A DNA stretch of 26,195 nt from a virus. Where the stretch lies: positions 1-26,195 of the IMG/VR virus record IMGVR_UViG_3300005078_000015, one strand, 5' to 3'. The position numbers were made by a program, and so were the translations under genes. Position 1 is the stretch's first letter. Each line of letters opens with the position of its first letter. Of this stretch, positions 5,617-15,592 are shown piece after piece. The notes under the pieces were generated by a model. The model did not search any database and was not told where the DNA came from. It saw only the letters and a program-made list of their open reading frames with translations.

Positions 5617-6417
5617 TTAGTATCTCCTATGAAATAAACCGCTACAAAAACCACCAAGCCAATCGCCACAACAATCTGAACCTCCGAAACCAAAAACAGG
5701 CACATCAAAGGATTCATACAGGGAAACTTTAACACCAATGGGGGCAGGAAGCAATAATTTATAAAAATCTAAAAGCAACTTTTCTTCCGTGGTAAATTTT
5801 CTTCCAACGTTAAAAGTTACTTCCCCACTTCTTTCTTGTAAAAAATAAACTTGGTCACCAAACAAAATCTGTAAACCAAGTTTTATGTCGCTTAAACTGT
5901 TATCACTGTTATCCGAAAGAATCTTTAGTCGTAACAGTTTAGCGTAATGTTCGTCGTCCTCAAAACAGTAATCTTCATATTCTGGAAGTTTGCCACAGTT
6001 AAATTCGCCTTCACAAAAACCAAGTACAGTAGACTCATCTGGGGAACAACATATAGTCGGTGTATTCATACTGTCATTTTTTGATTTCCAAGAACCAGAG
6101 TCTAAGCCTGTTAAGTATGCTGGGTCTTCCTTTACTGTTTCTCCGTCCACATAATCAAAACCGAACCAGAACTTTTGTAGTTGGGTAAAACCGAACCAAC
6201 GTTTCTTTTTTATATTACAGAAACACCGCGGAAAGTTAACAATCTCTCCGAGCCTATCAAGACCAACGATTTCTGTTTCACAAAGGGCAAGTTGAATCGC
6301 CTCTAAGTCTTTTAAATAAACTTTAATAAAGTCCTTAAAGTTATTAGACTCCCTGTACTGTGTTGCTATTTTCTCGAGGGTGTCATTTACAAGGCGACCT
6401 TCTTCATAACAGCTCAT
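5617..6417 (-). CDS. Baseplate wedge protein, DUF2612-like (gpI-like)
   Basis: 266 residues following the gpJ-like gene in a 14-nt overlap, the expected position for the gpI/DUF2612 component that links the baseplate wedge to the fibres. The fold pattern fits: an N-terminal helical region with LDRLGEIVNFPR, a middle segment on handling a short helix bundle (YAKLLRLKILSDNSDNSLSD), and a C-terminal KLLLPAPIGVKVSLYE strand typical of DUF2612 proteins. The protein is rich in cysteine (12 Cys by count, including CFC, two CC pairs, FCEGEFNCG and GGFCSG), unusual for a cytoplasmically assembled virion part. The C-terminus ends in a Gly/Cys/aromatic cluster that resembles a motif in the upstream gpJ-like protein. 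Confidence 0.75.
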   Translation of the reverse strand: MSCYEEGRLVNDTLEKIATQYRESNNFKDFIKVYLKDLEAIQLALCETEIVGLDRLGEIVNFPRCFCNIKKKRWFGFTQLQKFWFGFDYVDGETVKEDPAYLTGLDSGSWKSKNDSMNTPTICCSPDESTVLGFCEGEFNCGKLPEYEDYCFEDDEHYAKLLRLKILSDNSDNSLSDIKLGLQILFGDQVYFLQERSGEVTFNVGRKFTTEEKLLLDFYKLLLPAPIGVKVSLYESFDVPVFGFGGSDCCGDWLGGFCSGLFHRRY

Positions 6418-10555: not shown

Positions 10556-11214
10556 GGTGACACCCCTACTTTCTGATTTCTTCCACTGCCCCAACCGATG
10601 TCCACGACATCACGCAAAGTCCTGTCTGTTGTCTTCTTCCCTTTCGAAACTTCTCCGGATGCAGTATCCCCGCTAGAATCCCCACCCTCAAGGGGGTATT
10701 TTGACTCTTGGTTTTGAACATCACCACGTTCGACAGTCGGTGCCCCCCTGTTTTGTGTGGAGTTATCCTCGAGAGACGGAGCAGACCCGTCTGCCGTAAC
10801 CGCTCTTAAAGAGGAAGCGGATATTGTCTTTGTCCCAACAATAATGACCTCCTCACAACTTGCCCTCACCAGAAGAACGTGTGCTGTTTGGTCGTCCTGC
10901 GTTACACTAAAATTCCGGATAAGCATGTTCTTTAATTGAGTTAGTCCAGTTAAGATGGTAAAAGGTTCTCTACTCTCTTGGACTTTGACAAGAGTTTCGT
11001 ACGCACCTTTTATTTTTCCAGGACTCCAGCCTTTGTAGAAATCGGAGACACCCGCCACAATGTCAAATTTCTTTGGCATAACTTGTGCGTGGTCAGAAAT
11101 CTCTGTACCTTTTTCTACGGGGTGTCTTGTTATAGCGAGGTTCCCGTTATGGGTCTCTTCTATTGTTACGTCAATTTCAAAAGCACCGAGGTTCTTTGTA
11201 AAAAAAACAGCCAT
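10552..11214 (-). CDS. Tail tube initiator, Dit-like baseplate protein
   Basis: 220 residues directly after the tape measure gene, in a 1-nt overlap. The N-terminal ~135 residues form the domain called Dit-like: strands FEIDVTIEETHNGNLAITRH and HAQVMPKKFDIVAGVSDFYK, then a helix and TILTGLTQLKNMLIRNFSVT, a common pattern where the conserved central Gly-Leu and Asn precede a strand on relief of the tape. The protein should form the first ring on which tail tube polymerises. The C-terminal ~85 residues are Ser/Gly/Glu-rich, low-complexity and predicted disordered, ending in a basic-aromatic patch (VVDIGWGSGRNQKVG). Confidence 0.8.
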   Translation of the reverse strand: MAVFFTKNLGAFEIDVTIEETHNGNLAITRHPVEKGTEISDHAQVMPKKFDIVAGVSDFYKGWSPGKIKGAYETLVKVQESREPFTILTGLTQLKNMLIRNFSVTQDDQTAHVLLVRASCEEVIIVGTKTISASSLRAVTADGSAPSLEDNSTQNRGAPTVERGDVQNQESKYPLEGGDSSGDTASGEVSKGKKTTDRTLRDVVDIGWGSGRNQKVGVSP

Positions 11215-13397
11215 TAGTATTCCACCGTTGTTGTAGAGTTTCTCTGTTGCCTATTAGCAAGGTCAGTAAGTGTTTGCTTAATTACGTTTGCCGATGTATA
11301 AGGGTCAGTAGTAGCACCGTTAACCGTTACACTGTTCTGTACCGTACTTGAGTTATCGTTGTTAATAGGACGGTTATTTCCGTTAACAGGAAGACGGTGG
11401 CCGTAAGTGTTTTGCTCACCAGAAGAAACGAAATTTTTTATTTGCCGTAAGACAGCAGCATCTTTGTTCATTTCCTCGGGTTTATTTGCTTGCCTAAACT
11501 TTTCGCTAACCCAACCAGCACCCTTACCCAAAGACTCGCCGACAAACTTAATCACTTTACCACCTAAGTAAGTTTCGAAAATATCTTTCGCCTCAGCGAA
11601 GGCATCTTTAATGTCCTGAACCATGTTCTTGACCATTATAGATACTGTTCCTGTAAAAGTTTCCCAAGCATTTGTCATCCAAGCAACAACCGTATCCCAA
11701 TTCTCCCAGAGTTTATATAGGGCATAAATCAAAGTAGCTATAATAGAGCCTATTAAAAGACTTTTACCGAGTAAGGCAAAGGCGGCGGCCACACCTTTAG
11801 TCGCTGCGGTAGTTGCAATGGCCTGAAATGCCCAAGCACGCATAGCCCAAATTAACTTCATTATCTGCCCTACTAAAATAAGAAGTGGAGCAAGCCAAGC
11901 GATCAAAAGAACCCTACCAAGCCATTTAACAAGTGCCCCAAAACCACCGACTTTTTTAGCCAACCGCTGAATTAAAGTTTCTCCGTCACGGATAGCAACT
12001 GCGGTCTTTTTCAACCATTCCCAAAATGCTTTAATGTTAACAACAAGATAATCACTAACTGCTTTTGCATACTCTTTAAGTTTACCAGTTTCGTATAACT
12101 CAAAGAGCTTGTCTGTAATTTCCTTTAGGATTTCTTTTAACGAATCAAAATAACCAGAGTCGTTAACCATGACCTGAAATATGTGCTTAAAGTCAAGGAT
12201 TTTGTTTGTTAAGCCGGACATTGTGTTAGCAATTTCTTCCGCAGAACCTTCTGCATCTTTAGCCAACCAATCAAACGCCTGTGAAAGTATTTCTCGGTTT
12301 AACTTACCCTCACTTGCCATCTCATAAACTTTACCGATATTATCTTGTTTGTCTTTTGTTGGGTCACCGACAACATTTGCCAGTGCCTCTAAAATCGGTA
12401 TGCGAGCCTCTGTTGCAGCACGTAAGTCCTGGCCTTGAAATTTATTCTTCGCCCAGCCTTGTCCTAATTGAAGGAGTGCTCTTTTAAGGTCATCCTGTGT
12501 GCCACCGTACTTGAAGGCAGAGTCCACAAGCCCCTTTAAGTCCTTGTCAGGGTTCATCCCCCTTTGGAGCATGTTAACGTATAGGTCAGTTGTTGTTCCA
12601 AAATCGAGCGGTGTTTTTAAGGCAGTGTTCATTATCGCCTTTTCTTGAGAAGCGACACGCTGTTCAGCCTCTTCGTTTGTTTCTCCTTCTACCTTACCGA
12701 AGTTACGAAGCATTAACCTTCTTTTTTCCATTTCGGCACCAACCACGGCAGTGTCTTTCATTGCCGTGTAGCCTGCAAGTCCGCCAAGAGAAACACCAAC
12801 TAAGTTCCTGAAACGAAGGATATTAGAGACTGTTCTGTTTATCCTTCTGCCCATTAGCATAAACTGCCTATTTATAGGACGAATGGCGTTCCTGACCCTT
12901 CGAGCGCCCAAAGTCATACTCGACCAAAGTGCTTTAGACTTTACCTTAGTAGTCCCAATAACCTGACCTAAGTTCCTAAACCAGCGAACAGCAGTAGCGG
13001 CAGCGTTTCTTGAGGCACGACCAGCTTCCCTCGAAACCCTCGCACCTTCCCTTGTCTCTGAGTTAACCTTCTTCTGTGCTTGAGCAGCCTTCCGTATCTC
13101 AGCGACCTCCTTTCTTCTTTTCCGTGCCCACTCTTTTACACTGGCTGAGTATTTCTTGTTTTCAGCAGTTACTTTTTTCTGCTCATTTAAGGTCTTTTCA
13201 ATTACCTTTAACTTTTCTTTCCATTCAGGAACATTAGCGTCTGAAACCTTAAACTTTACTTCTTTAGAAACCTCGTCCCGCATTCTTTTTGCGGTTCTTT
13301 GAATCTCTTTTAAGTGTTTTTTATGCTTTTGAAGTTCGGCAGTATTTATGTTATATCGCAGAAGCGTTATAAGCTCGTCTACAACTCTTTTAGCCAT
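11214..13397 (-). CDS. Tail tape measure protein
   Basis: At 727 residues this is the longest protein in the tail module. It sets tail length and is ejected at infection. The first ~120 residues are highly charged and coiled coil, followed by a basic segment. About residues 205-400 match the tape-measure N-terminal domain (tape_meas_nterm): MNTALKTPLDFGTTTDLYVN, DLKRALLQLGQGWAKNKFQG and the LNREILSQAFDWL segment. Two strongly hydrophobic stretches follow (around 490-515 and 530-560), which may form membrane-inserted pores. The C-terminus is Asn/Thr-rich. The start is supported by AAAGGAGG upstream. The ATG overlaps the stop of the frameshifted chaperone by 8 nt, the usual adjacency of chaperone and tape measure. 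Confidence 0.93.
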   Translation of the reverse strand: MAKRVVDELITLLRYNINTAELQKHKKHLKEIQRTAKRMRDEVSKEVKFKVSDANVPEWKEKLKVIEKTLNEQKKVTAENKKYSASVKEWARKRRKEVAEIRKAAQAQKKVNSETREGARVSREAGRASRNAAATAVRWFRNLGQVIGTTKVKSKALWSSMTLGARRVRNAIRPINRQFMLMGRRINRTVSNILRFRNLVGVSLGGLAGYTAMKDTAVVGAEMEKRRLMLRNFGKVEGETNEEAEQRVASQEKAIMNTALKTPLDFGTTTDLYVNMLQRGMNPDKDLKGLVDSAFKYGGTQDDLKRALLQLGQGWAKNKFQGQDLRAATEARIPILEALANVVGDPTKDKQDNIGKVYEMASEGKLNREILSQAFDWLAKDAEGSAEEIANTMSGLTNKILDFKHIFQVMVNDSGYFDSLKEILKEITDKLFELYETGKLKEYAKAVSDYLVVNIKAFWEWLKKTAVAIRDGETLIQRLAKKVGGFGALVKWLGRVLLIAWLAPLLILVGQIMKLIWAMRAWAFQAIATTAATKGVAAAFALLGKSLLIGSIIATLIYALYKLWENWDTVVAWMTNAWETFTGTVSIMVKNMVQDIKDAFAEAKDIFETYLGGKVIKFVGESLGKGAGWVSEKFRQANKPEEMNKDAAVLRQIKNFVSSGEQNTYGHRLPVNGNNRPINNDNSSTVQNSVTVNGATTDPYTSANVIKQTLTDLANRQQRNSTTTVEY

Positions 13398-13985
13398 CTT
13401 TTTGCGCCTCCTTTAACATAAATTCTTTAACATCAAGTGCCTCGTGGAAATCCATAAGGTCGTCGATGGTATAAGTGCCATCACACAGCTCCCCATAAGT
13501 ACAAAGTGGAGGTTCTGCTAAAACAGGCCTCCACAATAAGAAATTAAGGTTGGGGGCAAGTTCTTTTACTCTTCTCTGCTGGCGGTCGTCTGGAGAGTTG
13601 TCAGTAAGTCCGACCCCAGCAGTTCTACTAAAAAATCTTTAAAGTTAACCTCAAGAACCCAAAAAGCAACCTTATAGATTGTAGAGTAGGGTTTGTCACT
13701 AAGGTCTAAATCAAAATTAAGTTTCTTTCCGTTAATCCAAGTCTTTTCACAAAGCTCGACTAACAGGTCAGTCACAACGTCAGGGTCTAAGTCTTTTAAA
13801 ACGGTAGAAAAAGAATCGACATTAAAATTGTCTTCATCTTCTGAAAAACCGTCAAAAAGTGCCATTAAAGGCGCCCCGATTATTTTTGTTACACGAAATT
13901 TTAAGTTAATACCAGATTTCGCATTTTCTTTAAAGACTTTATAGTTGTCCCCATCAATCGTTGTACTAAATTCTCTACTATTCAT
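13390..13985 (-). CDS. Tail assembly chaperone fusion (GT-type) by -1 frameshift
   Basis: Joined reading: residues 1-119 from 13985 down to the Leu codon TTA ending at 13629, then a -1 shift that re-reads base 13629 and continues for 79 codons to TAA at 13390-13392. The total is 198 residues. The new extension is open throughout and has the character of the T domain: LNFLLWRPVLAEP, then YTIDDLMDFHEALDVKEFML and a Lys-rich end. The ~170 nt after the shorter frame stops have no other gene, so this extension explains an otherwise empty gap. In lambda (G/GT), P2 (E/E+E') and many others, a few percent frameshift makes a long chaperone that loads tube protein on the tape measure. The tape measure ATG overlaps its stop. 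Confidence 0.87.
13566..13985 (-). CDS. Tail assembly chaperone, unshifted form (G-type)
   Basis: The main product, 139 residues, lies between tail tube and tape measure genes, the invariant place of the tail assembly chaperone. It is acidic, with an FKENAKSGINLKFRVTKIIG strand region and a helical middle (SFSTVLKDLDPDVVTDLLVE, then KTWINGKKL). The family is divergent and was not recognised by sequence alone. Location, size, the frameshift signal near its end and the T-like extension identify it. The gene starts 24 nt after the tube gene. Residues 120-139 (end of the zero frame) are replaced by the extension when ribosomes slip. Confidence 0.85.
   Translation of the reverse strand: MNSREFSTTIDGDNYKVFKENAKSGINLKFRVTKIIGAPLMALFDGFSEDEDNFNVDSFSTVLKDLDPDVVTDLLVELCEKTWINGKKLNFDLDLSDKPYSTIYKVAFWVLEVNFKDFLVELLGSDLLTTLQTTASREE
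13576..13635 (-). promoter_or_regulatory. -1 programmed ribosomal frameshift signal
   Basis: On the minus strand the heptamer T TTT TTA (13635 to 13629) is in the correct phase for tandem slippage, since the zero-frame codons are TTT and TTA. A 6-nt spacer (GTAGAA) follows, then a stem of 12 base pairs: CTGCTGGGGTCG (13622-13611) pairs with CGACC-G-CCAGCAG (13588-13576) with a single bulged G and a 22-nt loop. Heptamer, spacer and stem all match the standard bacterial and viral -1 signal. The -1 frame has a stop (TAA) just before the heptamer and is open for 79 codons after it, so the shift must occur here. Confidence 0.85.
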
Positions 13986-14009: not shown

Positions 14010-14450
14010 TTAAGCACCGATATAGTTGGTTGGTGTGTCTGTCCAACAACCGGCAAAAATCTTCCATTCACGCATGCTTGCGTTAGCACCTAAGCCTTTT
14101 GTTGGAGCGTCTTGAATTACACATTCTGGAGCAGAACCACCGTCCCCAGTACCTACATCGGTAACACCGCAAGAAAAAATAAACGGAGCACCAGCTTGGT
14201 ATTGTGCTAACATTGCAGATAACATAGCGTGCCCGTCACCTGCGTGCTGTAAACGAATAGTTATGATGGCGGACTTATTTGTGGTTATGGATGACAGTAC
14301 ATCACCAGACGCACCAACCATGTTATTCGTGACAGGGCTGCCTGGTTCTACGGAAACCGCATCGTCCCCTTCCCAAAAACCAGTCAGTAATGCACCGTTA
14401 ATAACTGCCGCGACGTTATCAAAGGTATATGTTCGTAATTGAGTCGACAT
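14010..14450 (-). CDS. Tail tube protein (DUF3277-like)
   Basis: 146 residues, following the tail sheath gene by 14 nt. The order sheath, tube, chaperone, tape measure is standard for contractile tails. The N-terminus YTFDNVAAVINGALLTGFWE resembles DUF3277 tail tube proteins, with a FxxVxxxxNG turn and then GFxxGDDAVSVE; later strands such as SAIITIRLQHAGDGHAMLSA are also as in the family. Tube proteins stack as hexameric rings inside the sheath and form the DNA channel. Length fits a single-domain tube subunit. No decoration domain is visible. Confidence 0.82.
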   Translation of the reverse strand: MSTQLRTYTFDNVAAVINGALLTGFWEGDDAVSVEPGSPVTNNMVGASGDVLSSITTNKSAIITIRLQHAGDGHAMLSAMLAQYQAGAPFIFSCGVTDVGTGDGGSAPECVIQDAPTKGLGANASMREWKIFAGCWTDTPTNYIGA

Positions 14451-14464
14451 TATTCTCTCCTATT

Positions 14465-15592
14465 TTAAACTGTTAGTGTACCGTTAACGGTCGCGTAATG
14501 TATCGCTCCGGCGATTGTCGCTACAAACGAAATCGGTGGTGCAATTCTTTGTCCTCTTTGCGAAGGAGGAACAGTGGAAACTCGGTTAACGTCAATAGTG
14601 TAAGGCGGGATAAAGTTTCCGTCCTCGTCAAAATCGCTGGCAAGGAAACCGTTGTTAACAGCTTCTTCGAGTGCGTACTTAACCTCGTCCACAATCATTT
14701 GTGTTCCGACATTTGTGTAGGGAACTTTCTTTTCTTTAACAAGCAAAGTGTAAATTCTGTAAGAAATAGCAAATTGAAGCCAGTCAGCACCGTGCATGGT
14801 ATCAAACCATTCACCGCTTGCCATATTGCCTTCTACAAGCATATTGTTTCCCGCAATGTTAACGTATGCGTTGGCGTAGTGCCCTGCAGAATCAACAAGT
14901 CCTTGGCCAGGAACGAAACCTGTAATTGCTGTTATTACAGCACTTGATTTCTGTAGAGGCTCAATACCGTGAAGTTTCTTAAACTTCATGGTAATTGTAC
15001 TGTTCTGTCCTTGGAAGTTAACACGTAGCCCTCTTGCCATAAAAGCAACGTCCATATACTCGGCAGAATTTGTATGATAGCATACACCAGTTCTGTCGTA
15101 ACCTGCTAAATGAAGTCGGGCAGCAACGTGAGTCTGGTCGTTAGAATCTTCGGTCAAGGGGTCGTTACTGCACGTCATATACAACTTAACTCTTGCTTCC
15201 ACCCATTCGGCAACACTGTCAACATCAGTGCTGTCACGCATTTCTTTCGTAAAAGCAAGACCGTACCAATCACTGTCGTATGCTTCAACAGCGTCAAGTT
15301 CGTCTTGAATAGGGTTAGCATCGTTATAGTAACCGATTTTTATGAACAACGGTTTTGGTTGAACAGAAAAAGCAGCAAGGGCAGCTTTGTACGGTTCAGA
15401 AGTAGAGGCGTAATCTTCTGCAACTTCTTCTGGTGTAGAGTACAATTTTGTTCTGTCTGTTGCGTTAACAACACCCGTAGAATCGTTAGTAAGAAGTAAA
15501 AGTGTACCGAAACCTCTTCTTGTCGGAAAAATTGTCGCTCTTTCTATAGTAACGTCAATTATTCTGGATAAAGGTAGTGTCTTAATAGCCAT
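14465..15592 (-). CDS. Contractile tail sheath protein (DUF3383-like)
   Basis: 375 residues, the size of a compact sheath subunit. The N-terminus shows the DUF3383 pattern: LPLSRIIDVTIERATIFPTR, then FGTLLLLTNDSTG, a YSTPEEVAEDYASTSEPYKA helix and a PLFIKIGYY strand. The C-terminal domain contains GADWLQFAISYRIYTLLVKE, conserved in sheaths, and ends in the strand that donates to a neighbouring subunit. Contraction of this sheath drives the tube into the host. It is the firmest evidence that the phage is a myovirus. It starts 2 nt before the end of the upstream neck gene. Confidence 0.92.
   Translation of the reverse strand: MAIKTLPLSRIIDVTIERATIFPTRRGFGTLLLLTNDSTGVVNATDRTKLYSTPEEVAEDYASTSEPYKAALAAFSVQPKPLFIKIGYYNDANPIQDELDAVEAYDSDWYGLAFTKEMRDSTDVDSVAEWVEARVKLYMTCSNDPLTEDSNDQTHVAARLHLAGYDRTGVCYHTNSAEYMDVAFMARGLRVNFQGQNSTITMKFKKLHGIEPLQKSSAVITAITGFVPGQGLVDSAGHYANAYVNIAGNNMLVEGNMASGEWFDTMHGADWLQFAISYRIYTLLVKEKKVPYTNVGTQMIVDEVKYALEEAVNNGFLASDFDEDGNFIPPYTIDVNRVSTVPPSQRGQRIAPPISFVATIAGAIHYATVNGTLTV

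Follow-up and report, generated by a model that had tools for sequence, protein, structure and literature searches.

In phage lambda the tail assembly chaperone is made in two forms, of which gpG, the shorter, coats the tape measure protein and gpGT, the longer, recruits the subunits of the tube (PMC5009743, and Levin 1993 and Xu, Hendrix and Duda 2004, 2013, cited therein). A -1 frameshift of a chaperone gene has also been described for phage Adele and the Vandenendeviridae/Andersonviridae, with GTTTTT as the motif and with the extension annotated as a hypothetical gene (PMC12846349). Outside of tail assembly, the -1 sites of E. coli dnaX and of IS3-type elements combine a slippery heptamer with an upstream Shine-Dalgarno-like (SD-like) element and a downstream structure (PMC5009743). 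The locus described here lies in IMG/VR record IMGVR_UViG_3300005078_000015, of which the whole analysed stretch of 26,195 nucleotides is called the window. Judged by its sequence, the locus is a gpG/gpGT arrangement of the kind already known in tailed phages. As in lambda, the chaperone gene is located between the tube and tape measure genes and a -1 shift near its 3' end would add a C-terminal domain. However, the heptamer is a different one, the phage has a contractile tail, and both an SD-like element and a strong stem are found at the site; the likeness of the window proteins to gpG and gpT that is shown here is one of arrangement and not of sequence. The locus shares with Adele and the Vandenendeviridae/Andersonviridae, the nearest published case found, a -1 frameshift in a related chaperone and an extension that is likewise annotated as hypothetical, but their motif is GTTTTT and not T TTT TTN. 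All three components of the dnaX and IS3-type sites are present, although those sites use A AAA AAG where the window has T TTT TTA, and they serve another protein and another purpose.

The chaperone gene and the tail genes given here with coordinates are on the minus strand. The chaperone gene sits between a tail tube candidate of the KPP10 ORF10 family (14010-14450; PF11681, E 2.6e-10) and the gene of the tape measure protein (11214-13397; PF20155, E 1.8e-20), which has a good SD, AAAGGAGG. The tail sheath gene is found at 14465-15592 (phrog_205, E 8e-95), a Dit-like protein and baseplate genes are also nearby, and the portal, protease, major head protein and large terminase genes are located farther away. 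This set of sheath, tube candidate, tape measure, Dit-like, baseplate and head genes identifies the virus as a contractile-tail phage. The order of sheath, tube, chaperone, extension and tape measure was observed to repeat in related phages.

The short form of the chaperone is a protein of 139 aa encoded from an ATG start at 13566-13985. It matches Phage_TAC_15 (PF21822, E 2.5e-13) in Pfam and phrog_1613 (E 1.3e-12) among the PHROG tail assembly chaperones. Its model has a mean pLDDT of 83 and resembles 5ir0 (Z 8.3), YqbN (3klu, Z 5.2) and the HK97 chaperone (2ob9, Z 3.4), all of which outrank unrelated rows (Z 2.3 or less) even though the similarity to 2ob9 is weak. The top match, 5ir0, is ORF19 of a Vibrio cholerae PICI-like element and is listed as of unknown function. 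A tail-chaperone-like protein on such a phage-parasitic island could serve to disturb tail assembly of the helper phage.

Our analysis indicates, with high confidence, that this gene makes 139-aa and 198-aa tail assembly chaperones by -1 ribosomal slippage at T TTT TTA. This frameshift to a tail chaperone fusion was first proposed from the letters of the window alone, and it is now supported by the homology of both halves, the constancy of their frame relation, the retention of the heptamer column and purifying selection on the -1 frame. The heptamer occupies 13629-13635 and is read as T|TTT|TTA in the 139-codon frame, with GAT TTT TTA as the codon context. The -1 frame is closed on its upstream side by a TAA at 13642-13640 and is open from there to a TAA at 13392-13390, so that 79 codons and the stop (13390-13629) follow the shift. 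The resulting fusion of 198 aa ends within the tape measure start, in ATGGCTAA, with its stop overlapping the tape measure ATG (13397) by 8 nt. The sequence-only reading had given the same position and phase of the heptamer, the same limits of the open frame and the same fusion length and overlap, and each of these was borne out to the base. In-phase TTTTTTN is scarce in the genes of the window (6 per 8417 codons). In the 24-codon overlap the chance expectation is 0.017 for in-phase TTTTTTN and 0.16 for any in-phase XXXYYYZ. Another in-phase T TTT TTA is found at 5839-5845 on the minus strand, within the gene at 5617-6417, and in-phase TTTTTTN occurs in four more places in other window genes (1370, 2389, 11206 and 17596); these are most probably due to chance.

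According to the proposed mechanism, most ribosomes would terminate at 13566 to give the short form. A minority would come to a halt at T TTT TTA because of the 3' stem, and probably also because an upstream GAGGT pairs with the 16S anti-Shine-Dalgarno (anti-SD) sequence, whereupon the Phe and Leu tRNAs would both re-pair on TTT TTT, one base back. Slipped ribosomes would then translate 79 more codons to give the long form; the slippage and its level, the roles of the stimulators and the binding partners are inferred. As in lambda, the 139-aa form may coat the tape measure protein, and the less abundant 198-aa form may recruit tube subunits through its C-terminal domain; the ratio of the two would then be important. 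Counting against the proposal, U_UUU_UUA is reported to slip far less readily in E. coli than A_AAA_AAG does (PMC5009743).

The 79-aa extension was found to match phrog_4364 (E 4.8e-13) and, exactly at the gathering score of 23.9, DUF6889 (PF21829, E 3.6e-5), both of which are labelled 'unknown function'. Among the aligned extensions, 49 of 52 match phrog_4364 and 20 of 52 match DUF6889. Its model has a pLDDT of 87 and gave no PDB match with Z of at least 2 among the four chains returned by Foldseek. The ending of the fusion had been said to have T-domain character. Position and family make 'T domain' the right name for the extension, and homology to gpT itself is outside that support.

Relatives were more readily found through the extension than through the rest of the gene. 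Neither a DNA search with the region nor tblastn with the 139-aa protein gave a match in phage records, whereas the extension is a better conserved query and returned 130 phage records at E <=0.01. In the viral contigs, single-protein scans returned only a twin contig of the window (IMGVR_UViG_3300005882_000066) and a profile scan gave 56 loci, the twin among them; a sheath-protein scan of genome contigs found no relative, and Rfam has no match within the window. The loci were chosen without regard to the heptamer. One locus (L035) was scored by hand, since automated scoring had started from the wrong frame there, and one truncated locus (L063) was excluded. Our alignments show that the extension lies in the -1 frame of the upstream ORF in all 27 annotated regions, and that T TTT TTN occupies one alignment column in 23 of them and in the window, where T TTT TTA stands in the same column as T TTT TTC/T of the relatives. 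The -1 relation was observed in every fetched record with both parts (84/84, not all of them independent), and T TTT TTN is in phase in 77 of these and absent from the other seven. None of them therefore lacks both the heptamer and the -1 frame, the combination which the sequence-only reading had named as speaking against its claim.

The window alone could not exclude that a single gene had been split by a sequencing error or a recent mutation. The twin contig, however, is identical to the window over 4766 bp spanning the site, which makes an indel error unlikely if the two were independently assembled, and the same split recurs in all 84 records with both parts. Such an origin of the two frames has a negligible probability. 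The dN/dS in close pairs of relatives is about 0.04-0.36 for the -1 frame past the chaperone stop and about 0.7 or more for the other two frames. The -1 frame in this region is under strong purifying selection.

Another reading is that the extension is a small gene translated separately, and a short ORF at this position is listed as a 'hypothetical protein' in several phage records. However, the first start codon of the -1 frame in the window is a TTG at residue 32, which follows the conserved APNLN and has no SD, and separate initiation is for this reason unlikely. In addition, both the open frame and its conservation extend up to the heptamer, and the heptamer is kept too. A separate gene is thus very improbable, and the extension is better read as the product of ribosomal slippage.

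The heptamer exceptions are T_TTT_ATT (L034), T_TTT_ATA (L017), G_TTT_TTC (L020), CCCTTTC (L026), AAATTTT (L030 and L086) and GTTTTTT (L060). They bear on whether the frames are joined by RNA polymerase slipping on the T run and not by the ribosome. The site is indeed a run of six T, with seven in some relatives, but the runs at which transcriptional slippage is described in bacteria comprise 9 A or T (PMC5009743). Moreover, relatives with an interrupted run (T_TTT_ATT, T_TTT_ATA and G_TTT_TTC) keep the arrangement, and the heptamer always has the same codon phase. The shortness of the run, and the persistence of the arrangement where the run is interrupted, make slippage of the polymerase extremely improbable, and slippage of the ribosome is retained as the explanation. 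The sites at L034 3852-3858 and L017 1450-1456 retain the -1 extension. Only the P-site tRNA can re-pair well at these two sites, which suggests one-tRNA slippage in those lineages.

With regard to the stimulatory elements, the downstream stem begins 6 nt past the heptamer, after the spacer GTAGAA, and is formed by a 5' arm, CTGCTGGGGTCG (13611-13622), and a 3' arm, CGACC-G-CCAGCAG (13576-13588). It comprises 12 bp with one bulged G (13583) and has a dG of -21.2 kcal/mol; the spacer, stem and bulge reported earlier hold at these coordinates. When the same stretch is shuffled by dinucleotides, 1.9% of the shuffles attain its energy, as do 0.17% of the 63-nt windows taken along the coding strand. 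The loop ACTCT (13598-13594) is complementary to AGAGT (13572-13568) past the stem, so that a sequence reading of 13568-13598 allows a possible H-type pseudoknot.

The sequence-only reading had named the heptamer and the stem among the parts of the frameshift. Both are present, but the stem was observed not to be conserved in the family and an SD-like GAGGT upstream had been overlooked. This GAGGT (13648-13652) lies 12 nt upstream of the heptamer, inside the range of 9-14 nt reported for SD stimulation of -1 shifts (PMC5009743), and SD sequences are in use by the phage's own genes, as with AAAGGAGG of the tape measure gene. We examined its relatives in 53 loci, which were left on collapsing at 80% identity and consist of T-run loci with three exceptions added by hand. 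Averaged over these loci, anti-SD pairing between -150 and +40 is strongest immediately before the heptamer, with a mean of -5.3 kcal/mol where the average is -1.6 kcal/mol. Conserved amino acids carry much of this signal, yet the pairing beats synonymous randomisation (-5.6 against -4.5, Wilcoxon p 0.0012). An SD match of at least 4 nt was found in this position in 32 of 41 non-Chaseviridae loci, with 5 and 10 in the neighbouring intervals, and in only 2 of 12 Chaseviridae loci. The GAGGT of the window alone is unremarkable for its codons, as 29% of synonymous versions equal it. Taken with the pattern among the relatives, the sequence evidence indicates that GAGGT probably stimulates the frameshift.

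The stem was also considered as a conserved feature of the family, and this was rejected: averaged over the loci, the downstream structure is weak, with a mean z of -0.43. Strong downstream structure was observed in both collapsed T TTT TTA loci, the window (z -2.7) and L090 (z -2.6), and the stem is lineage-specific. This pattern, of two loci only, suggests that a stronger stem makes up for a weaker shift site.

The Chaseviridae, Kleczkowskavirus (RHEph04), Pam3 and Erebus have the same two domains in the same order and T TTT TTC/T at the same column, but they place TTC or TTT in the A site where the window has TTA. Most Chaseviridae, in contrast to the window with its GAGGT, have no SD-like element. 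We tentatively propose, at somewhat less than even probability, that DUF6889/phrog_4364 as a whole represents the C-terminal domain which TAC_15 chaperones gain by frameshifting. The slippery column would stay fixed while the stimulators around it are exchanged between lineages: T TTT TTC, mostly with no SD, in Chaseviridae, an SD with T TTT TTC/T elsewhere, and an SD and a strong stem with the weaker T TTT TTA in the window and L090. This proposed reassignment and the probable SD stimulator are what is new here. A search of the open-access literature gave no mention of DUF6889, and no account of this frameshift for the Chaseviridae/Rhizobium-phage group was found there, as judged largely by title and abstract. 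The proposal suggests a function for database families of unknown function. Furthermore, sites that vary in heptamer, stem and SD-like element form a natural series in which the contributions of each to the frameshift level could be compared.

The N-domain profile also finds the chaperone of KPP10 (E 8e-18), which has the same locus order and GTTTTT. The KPP10 extension (L092 7660-8288) is not convincingly matched by the present T-domain profile (E 0.025). As far as these sequences indicate, the extension may have been replaced, or have diverged past recognition, between phage lineages.

A joined CDS was annotated in none of the 27 regions examined, where the -1 region is either blank or called hypothetical. 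The annotation of many contractile-tail phage genomes, in which this region is now empty or 'hypothetical', would be corrected. As an example, the Mangalitsa record (L024 1496-1885) has about 390 nt left blank between the chaperone and tape measure genes, and the -1 extension is located within this gap. The annotated tape measure gene of Mangalitsa seems to start too late.
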